The notes below the pieces were generated by a model. The model was given only the letters and a program-made list of their open reading frames with translations. It ran no database searches and had not been told where the DNA came from. A stretch of 64,000 nucleotides of DNA from NCBI RefSeq assembly GCF_027111295.1, contig NZ_CP114287.1, positions 2,294,001-2,358,000 of the forward strand, read 5' to 3'. Numbering within the stretch: position 1 is the stretch's first letter; every line of letters begins with the position of its first letter. Below, piece by piece: positions 58,985-63,086 of this stretch. The position numbers and the translations under genes were made by a program. The stretch is from Flavobacterium gelatinilyticum (lineage in GTDB: Bacteria; Bacteroidota; Bacteroidia; Flavobacteriales; Flavobacteriaceae).

Positions 58985-60961
58985 ATGACTTTCAAAGAAC
59001 AAATACAACAAGGAATACCTTCTATATTACCTCCAAAACAAGCTTACGATCCGGCTATTAATCATGCTCCAAAACGAAAAGAAATTCTTTCGGCAGAAGA
59101 AAAAAAGCTGGCGCTGAAAAATGCCTTACGTTATTTCGATCCAAAACACCACGCCGAATTACTTCCTGAATTTTCAGAAGAATTAGAAACTTACGGACGT
59201 ATTTATATGTATCGTCTTCGTCCGGATTACAAAATGTACGCAAGGCCAATTGACGAATATCCTGGGAAATCATTGCAGGCAAAAGCGATTATGCACATGA
59301 TTCAGAATAATCTGGATTATGCGGTGGCGCAGCATCCGCATGAATTGATTACGTATGGAGGAAACGGAGCCGTTTTTCAAAACTGGGCGCAATATTTATT
59401 AACGATGCAATATTTGTCTGAAATGACAGATGAGCAGACTTTAACGATGTATTCAGGACACCCAATGGGATTGTTTCCTTCACATAAAGAAGCACCGAGA
59501 GTTGTGGTTACAAACGGAATGGTCATTCCAAATTATTCTAAACCTGACGATTGGGAAAGAATGAATGCTCTTGGAGTTTCGCAATACGGACAAATGACGG
59601 CAGGAAGTTATATGTATATTGGTCCGCAGGGAATTGTACACGGAACTACGATTACGGTTTTAAACGGTTTTAGAAAAATAAAACAAAATCCCGAAGGAAG
59701 TTTATTTGTAACTTCTGGATTGGGCGGAATGTCGGGCGCACAGCCAAAAGCAGGAAATATTGCAGGATGTATTACGGTCTGCGCCGAGGTAAATCCAAAA
59801 ATTACGAAAATCCGTCACGAACAAGGATGGATTAACGAAGTGGTAACTTCTACAGATGAGTTGGTTACCAGAGTAGCTTCGGCGAAAGCCAAAAAAGAAA
59901 CCATTTCTATCGCTTATCTAGGAAACGTGGTTGATGTTTGGGAACGTTTCGACAAGGAAAACATCAAAATTGATTTAGGTTCAGACCAGACTTCGCTTCA
60001 TAATCCTTGGGCCGGAGGGTATTATCCGGTTGGAATTTCGTTTGAAGAAGCTAACAAAATGATGGCTGAAAATCCGGATTTGTTCAAAGAAAAAGTTCAG
60101 GAAAGTTTACGCCGTCATGCAGATGCCATCAATAAACATACTGCAAAAGGAACTTATTTCTTTGATTACGGAAATGCCTTTTTATTAGAAGCTTCTCGCG
60201 CCGGAGCCGATGTAATGGCCGAAAATAATATCGATTTTAAATATCCTAGTTACGTTCAGGATATTATGGGACCAATGTGTTTCGATTACGGATTTGGGCC
60301 TTTCCGCTGGGTTTGTACTTCGGGGAAACCGGAAGATTTGCTAAAAACAGATGCGATTGCGTGTGAAGTTTTAGAAAAAATGGCCGAAACTGCTCCAAAT
60401 GAAATTCAGCAGCAAATGCAGGATAACATTAAATGGATTAAAGGCGCTCAGGAAAACAAATTAGTTGTAGGTTCACAAGCTCGTATTTTGTATGCGGATG
60501 CCGAAGGACGAATTAAAATAGCCGAAGCTTTTAATCAAGCCATTGCAAAAGGCGAAATTGGCGCAGTGGTTTTAGGACGCGATCATCATGACGTTTCAGG
60601 AACTGACTCGCCTTACAGAGAAACCTCAAATATTTATGACGGATCTCGTTTTACTGCCGATATGGCGATTCATAACGTGATTGGAGACAGCTTTAGGGGC
60701 GCAACCTGGGTATCCATCCACAACGGCGGCGGCGTGGGCTGGGGAGAGGTTATAAACGGCGGATTTGGTATGGTTCTTGATGGTTCTACAGAAGCTTCAA
60801 AGCGTTTAGCTTCAATGCTTTTCTGGGATGTTAACAACGGAATTTCAAGAAGAAGCTGGGCCCGAAACGAAGGTGCTGTTTTTGCCATAAAAAGAGCAAT
60901 GGAAGCTGAGCCTTTACTTAAAGTAACTTTACCTAATTTTGTAAATGAAAGTTTGCTTTAG
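58985..60961 (+). CDS. hutU: Urocanate hydratase
   Basis: Second step of histidine degradation, converting urocanate to imidazolone propionate with tightly bound NAD. 658 residues, about 100 longer than the Pseudomonas type. Conserved blocks: YGGNGAVFQNWAQYLLTMQ, SGHPMGLFPSH, GLGGMSGAQPKA, SDQTSLHNPWAGGYYPVG, VSIHNGGGVGWGEVINGG. No hutH, hutI or hutG is beside it, which is unusual since these often cluster. Its leader carries the repeat described above. Confidence 0.96.
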   Translation: MTFKEQIQQGIPSILPPKQAYDPAINHAPKRKEILSAEEKKLALKNALRYFDPKHHAELLPEFSEELETYGRIYMYRLRPDYKMYARPIDEYPGKSLQAKAIMHMIQNNLDYAVAQHPHELITYGGNGAVFQNWAQYLLTMQYLSEMTDEQTLTMYSGHPMGLFPSHKEAPRVVVTNGMVIPNYSKPDDWERMNALGVSQYGQMTAGSYMYIGPQGIVHGTTITVLNGFRKIKQNPEGSLFVTSGLGGMSGAQPKAGNIAGCITVCAEVNPKITKIRHEQGWINEVVTSTDELVTRVASAKAKKETISIAYLGNVVDVWERFDKENIKIDLGSDQTSLHNPWAGGYYPVGISFEEANKMMAENPDLFKEKVQESLRRHADAINKHTAKGTYFFDYGNAFLLEASRAGADVMAENNIDFKYPSYVQDIMGPMCFDYGFGPFRWVCTSGKPEDLLKTDAIACEVLEKMAETAPNEIQQQMQDNIKWIKGAQENKLVVGSQARILYADAEGRIKIAEAFNQAIAKGEIGAVVLGRDHHDVSGTDSPYRETSNIYDGSRFTADMAIHNVIGDSFRGATWVSIHNGGGVGWGEVINGGFGMVLDGSTEASKRLASMLFWDVNNGISRRSWARNEGAVFAIKRAMEAEPLLKVTLPNFVNESLL

Positions 60962-60995
60962 AAAAAATAAAAAGAGAACATTAAATTTCCATAAT

Positions 60996-61535
60996 ATGAA
61001 AACATTCAAATTAGTTCCGATTTTGCTGCTTTTGATTCTTTCTTCCTGCAGCAGTGTTACTGTATATTCTGACTACGACAAAAACGTCGATTTTGCGCCT
61101 TACAAAACGTATGCTTTCTTTAAGCCCGGAATTGACAAGGTCGAGATTTCTGATTTGGATAAAAGACGAATTCTTCATGCCATAGATAATGAAATGCAGG
61201 CAAAAGGTTTAACCAAAAGTGAAAATCCTGATTTACTGGTAAACATTTTTACCAAATCGAGAGAACAGGTAAACGTAAACCAGTTTAGCGCCGGATGGGG
61301 CTACGGATGGGGATGGGGATGGAATCCGTGGATGATGTACGGCGGAAACCAGACTATGGTATCTACTTCTACCGAAGGTACTTTGTTTATTGATTTAATC
61401 GATGCCAAAAAGAAAGAAATGATCTGGCAGGGCGAAGGTCAGGGAACTTTAACTAAAAACGTCGATAAAAAAGATCAGAAAGTAGCTGAGTTTGTAAACA
61501 AAATTTTAGCTCAGTATCCGCCGGTTAAGAAATAG
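60996..61535 (+). CDS. DUF4136 lipoprotein
   Basis: 179 residues. Lipobox LSSCSS (C17 of this start). DUF4136 marks: VYSDYDKNVDFAPYKTYAF and ALDNEMQAKGLTKSENPDLLVNIF, followed by a Gly-Trp-rich loop GWGYGWGWGWNPWMMYGG and the closing EGTLFIDLIDAKKKEMIWQG. Start at 60996 rather than 60945 because the signal peptide begins here; the longer frame would overlap hutU by 17 bases. 34 bases after hutU, so probably cotranscribed. Confidence 0.9.
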   Translation: MKTFKLVPILLLLILSSCSSVTVYSDYDKNVDFAPYKTYAFFKPGIDKVEISDLDKRRILHAIDNEMQAKGLTKSENPDLLVNIFTKSREQVNVNQFSAGWGYGWGWGWNPWMMYGGNQTMVSTSTEGTLFIDLIDAKKKEMIWQGEGQGTLTKNVDKKDQKVAEFVNKILAQYPPVKK

Positions 61536-61613: not shown

Positions 61614-61621
61614 TACATTTG
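61614..61621 (+). promoter_or_regulatory. Promoter -7 box for the ilvA attenuator
   Basis: TACATTTG, 18 bases before the leader-peptide ATG, so transcription should begin just ahead of it. The -33 element is not clear. Confidence 0.6.
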
Positions 61622-61638
61622 CTATTCAGACAACAAAA

Positions 61639-61698
61639 ATGACAAACAATACCAACATTATTATCGCTATTAGCAGCATTATTGCAATTCAGCAGTAA
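61639..61698 (+). CDS. ilvA leader peptide
   Basis: A 19-residue open frame, MTNNTNIIIAISSIIAIQQ, with seven Ile and two Thr codons. It lies between a promoter and an intrinsic terminator, 144 bases ahead of ilvA, whose product makes the first intermediate of isoleucine synthesis. Ribosome stalling on Ile codons when Ile-tRNA is scarce would let GCGGGGT (61701-61707, just after the stop) pair with ACCTCCC (61740-61746) and block the terminator. A finished ribosome would cover that segment and let it form. Codon bias and placement make this a leader peptide rather than chance. Confidence 0.85.
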   Translation: MTNNTNIIIAISSIIAIQQ

Positions 61699-61739
61699 TG
61701 GCGGGGTGTTGTATAAATATGTAAAATATAATTATGAAG

Positions 61740-61763
61740 ACCTCCCAATTCGGGAGGTTTTTT
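61740..61763 (+). terminator. Attenuator terminator upstream of ilvA
   Basis: CCTCCC/GGGAGG stem (61741-61746, 61752-61757), loop AATTC, then TTTTTT. It stands 78 bases before ilvA, where it would only make sense as a regulated stop. Confidence 0.88.
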
Positions 61764-61841
61764 ATTTTAACAGATTAAAGATTCTCACAGAAAAAATCTT
61801 TTTTGGATCATTGAATCTTTGGCAAAAAAACTTAAAACACT

Positions 61842-63086
61842 ATGGATTTATTTAACGAAGTACTTAACGCAAAAAGGCAGCTCGAAAGCGTAGTTGCTGC
61901 CACTCCCCTGACCCAAAATTTAAATCTTTCTGACGAATTTGAATCTACTATATTATTAAAACGGGAAGATTTACAAATTGTACGTTCGTATAAAATCAGG
62001 GGTGCTTATAATAAGATTTCTTCATTAAATGAAAAAGAAAAAGCAAACGGAATTGTCTGCGCCAGTGCCGGAAACCACGCGCAGGGTGTTGCTTATTCGT
62101 GTAATCTTCTTAAAATAAAAGGCAAAATTTACATGCCGAAAACAACGCCAAAACAAAAAGTAAAACAGGTACAGTTATTCGGGAAATCGTTTGTAGAAAT
62201 TGTTTTAACAGGAGATACTTTTGATGATGCTTACGCTTCTGCAACGGCAGATGCCATTAAAAACCATAAAACTTTTGTTCACCCATTTGATGACGAAAAA
62301 GTAATTGCCGGACAGGGAACTGTTGGTTTGGAAATTTTAGAAAGTTTTAAAGAACCTATTGATTATGTCTTTGTTCCAATTGGCGGCGGCGGACTGGCTT
62401 CCGGATTATCGGAGGTTTTTAAGCATTTAAGTCCGCACACAAAAATTATTGGCGTTGAACCCAAAGGCGCTCCTTCGATGAAAACTTCGATTGAAGAAAA
62501 TCAGAATACAGCCTTGAAAACAATTGACAAATTTGTCGACGGCGCCGCTGTGAAACAAGTCGGTGACAAGACTTTTGAAATCTGCCGTTATAATTTAGAA
62601 GATATTATTCTGGTTCCCGAAGGAAAAGTCTGCACTACAATTTTACGTTTATACAATGAAGAAGCGATGGTTGTAGAACCTGCTGGTGCTTTAACAATCG
62701 CTGCCCTTGATTTTTATAAAGATAAAATCAAAGGAAAAAATGTGGTATGTATTGTAAGCGGCAGCAATAATGATATCGAACGAACTGCCGAAATAAAAGA
62801 GCGTTCTTTACTCTATGAAGGTTTAATGCATTACTTTATGATTCAGTTTCCGCAGCGTCCGGGCGCTTTAAAAGAATTTGTAAATAATATTTTGGGACCT
62901 GATGACGATATTACCTATTTTCAGTTTCATAAAAAGAACAATCGCGAAGTTGGTTCTGTAGTGGTAGGTTTGGAACTAAAAAACAAAAACGACATTATGG
63001 CCATTAAACTGAATATGACGCAAAACGGATTTGAATTTCAATACTTAAATGACAATCAGGATTTGTTTACACAGCTCATTGGATAA
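61842..63086 (+). CDS. ilvA: Threonine dehydratase (biosynthetic)
   Basis: PLP enzyme converting threonine to 2-oxobutanoate, the committed step to isoleucine. 414 residues: catalytic domain (1-320) with PLP lysine in VRSYKIRGAYN, CASAGNHAQGVAYSC, PIGGGGLASGLSEV and SGSNNDIERT, and one C-terminal ACT-like domain (about 330-410, HYFMIQFPQRPGALKEFV) that binds isoleucine for feedback. It is the short one-ACT form, not the two-ACT form of E. coli. Controlled at transcription by the leader upstream. No other ilv gene is in the window. Confidence 0.95.
   Translation: MDLFNEVLNAKRQLESVVAATPLTQNLNLSDEFESTILLKREDLQIVRSYKIRGAYNKISSLNEKEKANGIVCASAGNHAQGVAYSCNLLKIKGKIYMPKTTPKQKVKQVQLFGKSFVEIVLTGDTFDDAYASATADAIKNHKTFVHPFDDEKVIAGQGTVGLEILESFKEPIDYVFVPIGGGGLASGLSEVFKHLSPHTKIIGVEPKGAPSMKTSIEENQNTALKTIDKFVDGAAVKQVGDKTFEICRYNLEDIILVPEGKVCTTILRLYNEEAMVVEPAGALTIAALDFYKDKIKGKNVVCIVSGSNNDIERTAEIKERSLLYEGLMHYFMIQFPQRPGALKEFVNNILGPDDDITYFQFHKKNNREVGSVVVGLELKNKNDIMAIKLNMTQNGFEFQYLNDNQDLFTQLIG

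Follow-up and report, generated by a model that had tools for sequence, protein, structure and literature searches.

The locus analysed here raises the question of how the transcription of ilvA, the gene of threonine ammonia-lyase, is governed in Flavobacterium gelatinilyticum. The stretch of DNA that was examined (the window, 64,000 nucleotides) comes from a genome of 5.83 Mb assembled as a single contig. The closest named relatives of its IlvA, judged from the best 80 of 157 confirmed matches, all belong to Flavobacterium and are at most 97% identical to it; the protein scores 631.5 bits against the NCBIfam IlvA model (cut-off 421) and carries the Pfam domains PALP and Thr_dehydrat_C. A preliminary description of the window had read the region upstream of ilvA as a complete isoleucine attenuator, made up of a promoter box, a 19-codon frame with seven Ile codons, a terminator with six T and ilvA itself. 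We find these elements in the order and at the coordinates that it gave, and the motifs GCGGGGT and ACCTCCC, which it had proposed as the two halves of an antiterminator, are likewise in place (Table 1). Our analyses support the core of that description, and we put the probability at about 0.88 that the region is a ribosome-mediated transcription attenuator, by which ilvA would be transcribed when isoleucyl-tRNA is short. What the analyses show is the elements in the DNA and how far they are conserved, the folds predicted for the RNA, a rule of spacing and the covariation of a third hairpin; from these we infer the transcription start, the translation of the leader, termination, the response to isoleucine and pausing.

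Table 1. Elements of the predicted ilvA attenuator in the window, and the ilvD leader of the same genome
Feature	Position	Strand	Basis or remark
Promoter box TACATTTG, Bacteroidetes-type -7 box (TAnnTTTG)	61614-61621	+	sequence; 92/92 leaders
Leader frame MTNNTNIIIAISSIIAIQQ*, 19 codons, 7 Ile	ATG 61639 to TAA 61698	+	
Leader Ile codons	61657, 61660, 61663, 61669, 61678, 61681, 61687	+	
Third hairpin, candidate pause hairpin, over frame end and stop codon	61677-61685 with 61692-61700	+	RNAalifold
Antiterminator 5' arm GGCGGGGT, C61702 bulged	61700-61707	+	predicted fold
GCGGGGT	61701-61707	+	sequence
A/U-rich inner stem of antiterminator	61709-61738	+	predicted fold
Shared strand ACCTCCC (antiterminator 3' arm and terminator 5' arm)	61740-61746	+	
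Intrinsic terminator ACCTCCC-AATTC-GGGAGGT and six T	61740-61763	+	sequence, fold
Terminator 3' arm GGGAGGT	61752-61758	+	
T-run, six T	61758-61763	+	
ilvA, threonine ammonia-lyase, gene under predicted control	61842-63086	+	Pfam, NCBIfam
ilvD leader, own genome	L139, 12269-12395	-	terminator ACCTTCC-AAATACT-GGAAGGT; ilvA model 47 bits

Two features of the surroundings may be recorded. Between hutU (58985-60961) and the attenuator lies a short lipoprotein-like gene (60945-61535), which has no NCBIfam match and likely starts at the internal MKTFKLVPILLLLILSSCS rather than at 60945. The gap between the terminator and ilvA holds, at 61770-61838, a decayed-looking copy of an inverted repeat, GCCACGAATT ... 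AATTCGTGGCAAA, which occupies the same gap in many relatives and is seemingly present twice in the locus L013; the pattern check behind this observation is weak.

The conservation of the attenuator was examined in the genus. When 150 Flavobacterium genomes were searched for IlvA, 149 gave some match and 60 (that of F. gelatinilyticum included) gave one at an E value of 3.5e-163 or better. Upstream regions were taken for 57 of the other 59 genomes (G116 and G126 were left out), and 80 named loci, the best 80 of the 157 confirmed, were added, with an overlap of species between the two sets. The start of ilvA was placed in 137 of the 138 loci, the window's own among them (L054 is the exception). 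An Ile-rich leader and a CCTCC/GGAGG-type terminator are present in 116 of these 137 loci, in 92 distinct versions, which bears out the isoleucine attenuator of the preliminary description; a lack of the Ile-rich frame or of the terminator in related genomes had been named there as its refutation, and both are conserved. An ilvN-like gene stands between leader and ilvA in four of the 116 (L030, L031, L032 and L034), and in L136, where the attenuator is also present, 554 nt follow the terminator and 625 nt separate the stop codon from ilvA. Thirteen of the 21 loci outside the 116 have ilvA behind ilvC (L041, L042, L044-L047, L050-L053 and L055-L057), and in none of these 13 fetched ilvC-ilvA loci was an Ile leader found before ilvA; two more (L043 and L130) are contig ends. 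Such a leader was also not found in the stretch fetched upstream of ilvA in F. araucananum (L086), L013, L035 and L058. A covariance model built from 51 of the 92 leaders recovered a variant leader in L039 at 60 bits, and L028 has a doubled attenuator upstream of ilvB-ilvN-ilvA. The box TAnnTTTG precedes the ATG by 16-31 nt in all 92 distinct leaders. A TTG at the -33 spacing occurs in just 30 of them, in agreement with the weak -33 element described for F. johnsoniae (PMC6847099).

The 92 distinct leaders are 16-20 codons long and hold 6-10 Ile codons each (ATT 552, ATC 147 and ATA 10 in all); they end in TAA (73), TGA (13) or TAG (6), and their alignment contains in-frame insertions and deletions. 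One example is the leader of F. johnsoniae CI04 (L093), MTNFNNIIIAIISIIAIQQ*. The varied stops, the varied lengths and the constant richness in Ile suggest, at the level of sequence, that the leader is kept as a reading frame. A predominates just upstream of the ATG (96% at -1, 92% at -2 and 74% at -3), and at -3 this base is reported to favour initiation in organisms that lack Shine-Dalgarno sequences (PMC6847099); the leader of the window has no Shine-Dalgarno sequence, as is reported for the phylum (PMC6847099). Synonymous and non-synonymous change types number 9 and 11, and those involving Ile 2 and 1, all of them very small counts.

A translated leader could also yield a small protein with a function in trans, its place before ilvA being secondary. 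The non-Ile positions are in fact fairly conserved (Asn is found at codons 3 and 6 in 40 of the 41 distinct 19-codon frames), and a trans-acting trp leader peptide has been described in Sinorhizobium (PMC7298713). However, the length and several residues of the leader vary while its Ile content, its spacing and the RNA hairpins are kept, and similar units precede different genes of the isoleucine pathway, which together make a protein with a role of its own quite improbable.

Under the attenuator reading, the RNA behind the frame should be able to form two structures, and both are predicted. In the best antiterminator fold G61700 and G61701 pair with C61746 and C61745, C61702 is bulged and 61703-61707 pair with 61740-61744; together with the A/U-rich stem the hairpin (61700-61746) has an energy of -12.3 kcal/mol, compared with -13.9 kcal/mol for the terminator with its flanks. 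The antiterminator of the preliminary description thus exists as a predicted fold, not as seven base pairs with a C-C mismatch but as a 47-nt hairpin in which one C is bulged. With its own shuffled spacer as the control, the hairpin has a z score of -3.3 in the window and a mean of -3.26 over the 92 leaders, with p<0.05 in 94.6% of them, and the spacer with the shared strand folds below -3 kcal/mol in 92 of 92. In an alignment of 51 sequences hand-picked from the 92 distinct leaders (A1), 99.4% of the terminator cells are paired. The same description had looked to covariation between GCGGGGT and ACCTCCC in Flavobacterium ilvA leaders as evidence for the antiterminator; the pairing of the arms is indeed kept (95.2% of cells), but no covariation is seen in a fixed register among the 51 aligned ilvA leaders. 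The second core position is an A-U pair in 40 of these 51 and a G-U pair in 10, the window among the latter, and six (L029, L033, L036-L038 and L040) have a shifted GGAG/CTCC register. By prediction, the antiterminator excludes the terminator, and its 5' arm would be free only with the ribosome stalled on the control codons.

The placing of this arm follows a rule. In the 91 leaders with a regular arm (L114 was left out), the last Ile codon begins 16 nt before the arm (in the window, before its core G61703) in 87 cases and 15 nt before it in the other 4. The distance from the stop codon to the arm in the same leaders is 4 nt in 82, 7 nt in 5, 6 nt in 2 and 3 nt in 2, and an ending in Ile-Arg-stop instead of Ile-Gln-Gln-stop leaves the 16 nt unaltered in most leaders. 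The conserved quantity is therefore the distance between the last Ile codon and the arm, not that between the stop codon and the arm. Since the 16 nt stay fixed while the stop moves, the simplest explanation is that the leading edge of a stalled ribosome, and not the stop codon, sets the design.

This rule also bears on the possibility that the hairpin is merely the 3' terminator of the upstream lipoprotein-like gene, with the Ile-rich frame a chance product of A/T-rich DNA. That gene ends at 61535 and a terminator at this place would be normal; moreover, two relatives (L035 and L058) have a similar CCTCC/GGAGG terminator behind the upstream gene and no leader. Yet the box precedes the frame in 92 of 92 leaders, the frame, its stop and the 16-nt spacing are conserved, and related units elsewhere precede ilvN-ilvA, ilvB-ilvN-ilvA or an ilvN-like gene. 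The window has two frames of 12-40 codons with at least seven Ile codons (35% or more), and only the ilvA leader has a terminator behind it; in 40 dinucleotide shuffles such frames arose at a rate of 0.025 per window, and a terminator followed in no case. The Ile leader and terminator before ilvA are not due to chance, and conservation, spacing and shuffles lead us to reject a chance frame in front of another gene's terminator, which we regard as even less probable than a protein acting in trans.

The attenuator of ilvA contains one further element. The preliminary description had called the design the simplest possible, with a single switch; this does not hold, as a covarying third hairpin spans the end of the frame and the stop codon. 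In the 51 sequences 97.8% of its cells are paired, and changes on both sides are seen in 4 of the 8 pairs counted. The cells changed on both sides number 14, compared with 2.2 in shuffles, and none of 500 shuffles reaches 14; the count of further pair types is unremarkable, being reached by 67 of 500. When the hairpin is slid by one column, pairing falls to 29.0% and 36.5%; with slides of -3 and +3 columns 64.6% and 77.0% of the cells still pair, as is to be expected where ATT codons repeat. The hairpin has an energy of -9.2 kcal/mol in the window, compared with a mean of -1.2 kcal/mol for codon-permuted controls, and lies below such controls at p<0.05 in 86 of the 92 leaders. It is probably a polymerase pause hairpin that would let the ribosome catch up.

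The proposed mechanism would run as follows. RNA polymerase would start just 3' of TACATTTG and a ribosome would follow on the Ile-rich frame, the third hairpin over the stop codon pausing the polymerase until the ribosome has caught up. With ample isoleucyl-tRNA, the ribosome at the stop codon would cover the arm 61700-61707, leave 61740-61746 free to form the terminator, and so stop transcription before ilvA. The leading edge of a ribosome reaches roughly 12 nt beyond the first base of its A-site codon. A ribosome short of isoleucyl-tRNA would stall on an Ile codon, at the latest on that at 61687, with its leading edge ending just short of the arm; the exposed arm could then pair with 61740-61746 before the second arm of the terminator exists, and ilvA would be transcribed.

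These steps were examined in a folding model with four ribosome states and partial transcripts, in which the extent of the ribosome's cover is a value taken from general knowledge. For RNA ends from 61746 to 61752, the predicted probability of the antiterminator is 0.87-0.96 with the ribosome on the last Ile codon and 0.80-0.60 with the ribosome on the first. With the ribosome at the stop codon it is 0.00, and the terminator reaches 0.99-1.00 once its second arm is made. Without a ribosome the antiterminator is predicted at 0.73-0.75, alongside the third hairpin at 0.94-0.95; the third hairpin, since it coexists with the antiterminator in this state, seems not to be built to sequester the arm. 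At equilibrium the model favours the terminator in all four states once the RNA reaches 61758, which means that the switch would have to be kinetic and work by timing.

Alternatives of terminator and antiterminator are also common to T-boxes and metabolite riboswitches, but control by such a ribosome-free sensing RNA or by an RNA-binding protein is very improbable, as the stretch 5' of the antiterminator is almost wholly leader frame and, in the window, only tRNA reaches an Rfam gathering score. A T-box was specifically rejected, with no match at gathering in the window and none at the attenuator even at E values up to 1. The weak Rfam matches at the attenuator are leader-peptide families and unrelated ones; the best is Phe_leader (E 0.0043), and the leader families all stay below gathering (Phe_leader 29.5 of 55 bits, Thr_leader 22.3 of 55 and Trp_leader 19.2 of 41).

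Leader attenuators are classically known from enterobacteria, viz. ilvL of ilvGMEDA, thrL, trpL and hisL. The ilvA attenuator resembles them in its short frame rich in codons for the product, its terminator, its mutually exclusive antiterminator, a hairpin at the end of the frame and an arm placed at the ribosome's reach from the control codons. Unlike the multivalent ilvL, the leader of the window has Ile codons and none for the other branched-chain amino acids, and it serves an ilvA outside the ilv operon. It also differs from the trp leader, in that the hairpin over the stop codon shares a single nucleotide (G61700) with the antiterminator arm and, for this reason, should not sequester that arm as the trp 1:2 hairpin does; a further difference is that in the model nothing compels an untranslated leader of the window to give up the antiterminator before the terminator has been transcribed. 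By prediction the mechanism is classical, ordinary ribosome-mediated attenuation, and the element itself is new. Among the open-licence matches listed for the Flavobacterium and Bacteroidetes literature, no title or abstract describes the element. F. psychrophilum is reported to show strong signs of attenuation by leader peptides upstream of amino acid operons, in a study whose main text does not mention ilv (PMC9723704), and short frames reminiscent of leader peptides are described in 5' untranslated regions of Bacteroides (PMC7366714). The Corynebacterium ilvBNC attenuator or ilvB-II motif likewise places an upstream frame and an attenuator before an ilv operon (PMC11857589, PMC10272879), but it belongs to another phylum and serves another gene.

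With the ilvA element an attenuator has been mapped in full, and found to be widely conserved, in a phylum for which Shine-Dalgarno sequences are reported to be absent. If the proposed mechanism is true, the ribosome must stay close to RNA polymerase in Flavobacterium, a coupling that is directly testable, and the 16-nt distance from control codon to arm offers a measurable ruler for the leading edge of the ribosome in this phylum.

Leaders of the same kind are present elsewhere in the genome of F. gelatinilyticum. Its ilvD-ilvB-ilvN-ilvC cluster has before ilvD the leader MQISIIITSVVVVNVFSTSAAGMV*, with Ile and Val codons, and a terminator (Table 1). On the minus strand of their respective loci, hisG (L177) is preceded by the His-rich leader MISIQLHHHHLHYCSQAMC and a chorismate-binding, trpE-like gene (L180) by the Trp-rich leader MKTLMNNTWWWKNLRQTS, each with a TAnnTTTG box and a terminator. 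The codons match the pathway in each case: Ile only for ilvA, Ile and Val for ilvD, His for hisG and Trp for the trpE-like gene. A Thr/Ile-rich frame lies upstream of thrA (L178), which is probably also preceded by a leader attenuator; the terminator finder reported none behind this frame. For a leuA-like gene, inspection by eye of the 450 nt ahead of its called start showed no leader.

Beyond this genome, the covariance model matches in 60 of 397 genomes of the Flavobacteriaceae (49 of 231 genera), and within the genus Flavobacterium in 101 of 249 genomes. Among 27 loci read from other genera (L186-L212), L208 is a spurious match and the other 26 precede ilvD or ilvE-ilvD. Ile and Val codons are both present in 25 of the 26 leaders, as in MKKQILNIVSIIVIVIISQR*, and L207 has Ile codons without Val. 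It is plausible, judging from similarity rather than from a tree, that the ilvD leader is the ancestor of the Ile-only one, which would have formed as ilvA moved out of the operon.

In other loci the Ile attenuator occurs twice in series. Twenty regions chosen from strong covariance matches comprise 15 with two leaders, three with a single one (L230-L232) and two, L226 and L227, in which no leader was found; in all, 20 loci with tandem attenuators are known to us (L213-L225, L228, L229, L159-L162 and L166). In fourteen (L213-L225 and L228) the pair of leaders precedes an ilvN-like gene that encodes 165-174 aa and has no adjacent ilvB, and in six it precedes ilvN-ilvA or ilvB-ilvN-ilvA (L159-L162, L166 and L229, the last being ilvN-ilvA). 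The strict hairpin finder detected the second terminator in 16 of the 20 and missed it in L216, L217, L218 and L221; the second frame is present in all four, and in L217 the terminator was found by folding. The arm of the second unit, GAGTCAGG and variants, is unrelated to that of the first, CCTTTCTC; even so, 19 of the 20 loci have an Ile codon at precisely 16 nt from this second arm (19 nt in L220), and four of those 19 (L216, L217, L218 and L221) have one more at 10 nt. Salmonella mgtCBR is also described as having two short frames and two serial attenuators, but these respond to different signals, ATP and proline (PMC3641672), whereas both frames of the Flavobacterium tandem loci are Ile-rich; the window itself holds a single unit. 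These loci make it testable why one and the same signal should be read by two serial attenuators.

The ilvN-like proteins match the acetolactate synthase small subunit family PF10369 (three were checked), and the genome of F. gelatinilyticum has no ilvN paralog of the tandem type, its sole match being the operon ilvN, which is 40% identical. Two aligned positions, which from PDB relatives and the customary numbering we take to be Asn11 and Gly14 of E. coli IlvH, were compared in an alignment from which L214, L224 and L225 were left out (A2). They are Asn and Gly in four of four IlvN proteins with an adjacent ilvB, including that of L166 behind a tandem unit. Each of the 16 Ile-attenuated paralogs that have no ilvB next to them departs from this at one position or both, and 10 have lost the Gly, its place being taken by Arg, Asp, Glu, Ser or Thr. 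In the literature Asn11 and Asn29 are named as residues related to valine, and D17E of Corynebacterium glutamicum IlvN, a change at the Asn11 position, is said to confer valine resistance (PMC11893703). The wild-type C. glutamicum protein has Asp there and needs a further change for feedback resistance (PMC11893703), and a change at the Asn11 position alone is for this reason no proof of valine blindness. As D17 corresponds to Asn11, G20 corresponds to Gly14, and G20D/I21D/I22F is tabulated as a modification of acetohydroxyacid synthase (AHAS) for valine production, with citation of a paper on the feedback-resistant enzyme (PMC8709942).

A tentative and rather doubtful extension of these observations is that in Flavobacterium the Ile attenuator is a mobile regulatory cassette, which became Ile-only when ilvA left the operon and, in some relatives, was doubled before a solitary ilvN2 with changed valine-site residues. 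If this were true, isoleucine starvation would open two serial terminators and yield a small subunit that weakens inhibition by valine, isoleucine could be made despite an excess of valine, and serial attenuators for the same amino acid would form a steep switch of low leak. In two of the tandem loci, L222 and L223, a second, diverged threonine ammonia-lyase-like gene lies behind the tandem-attenuated ilvN-like gene, the L222 protein having been checked against Pfam and NCBIfam.
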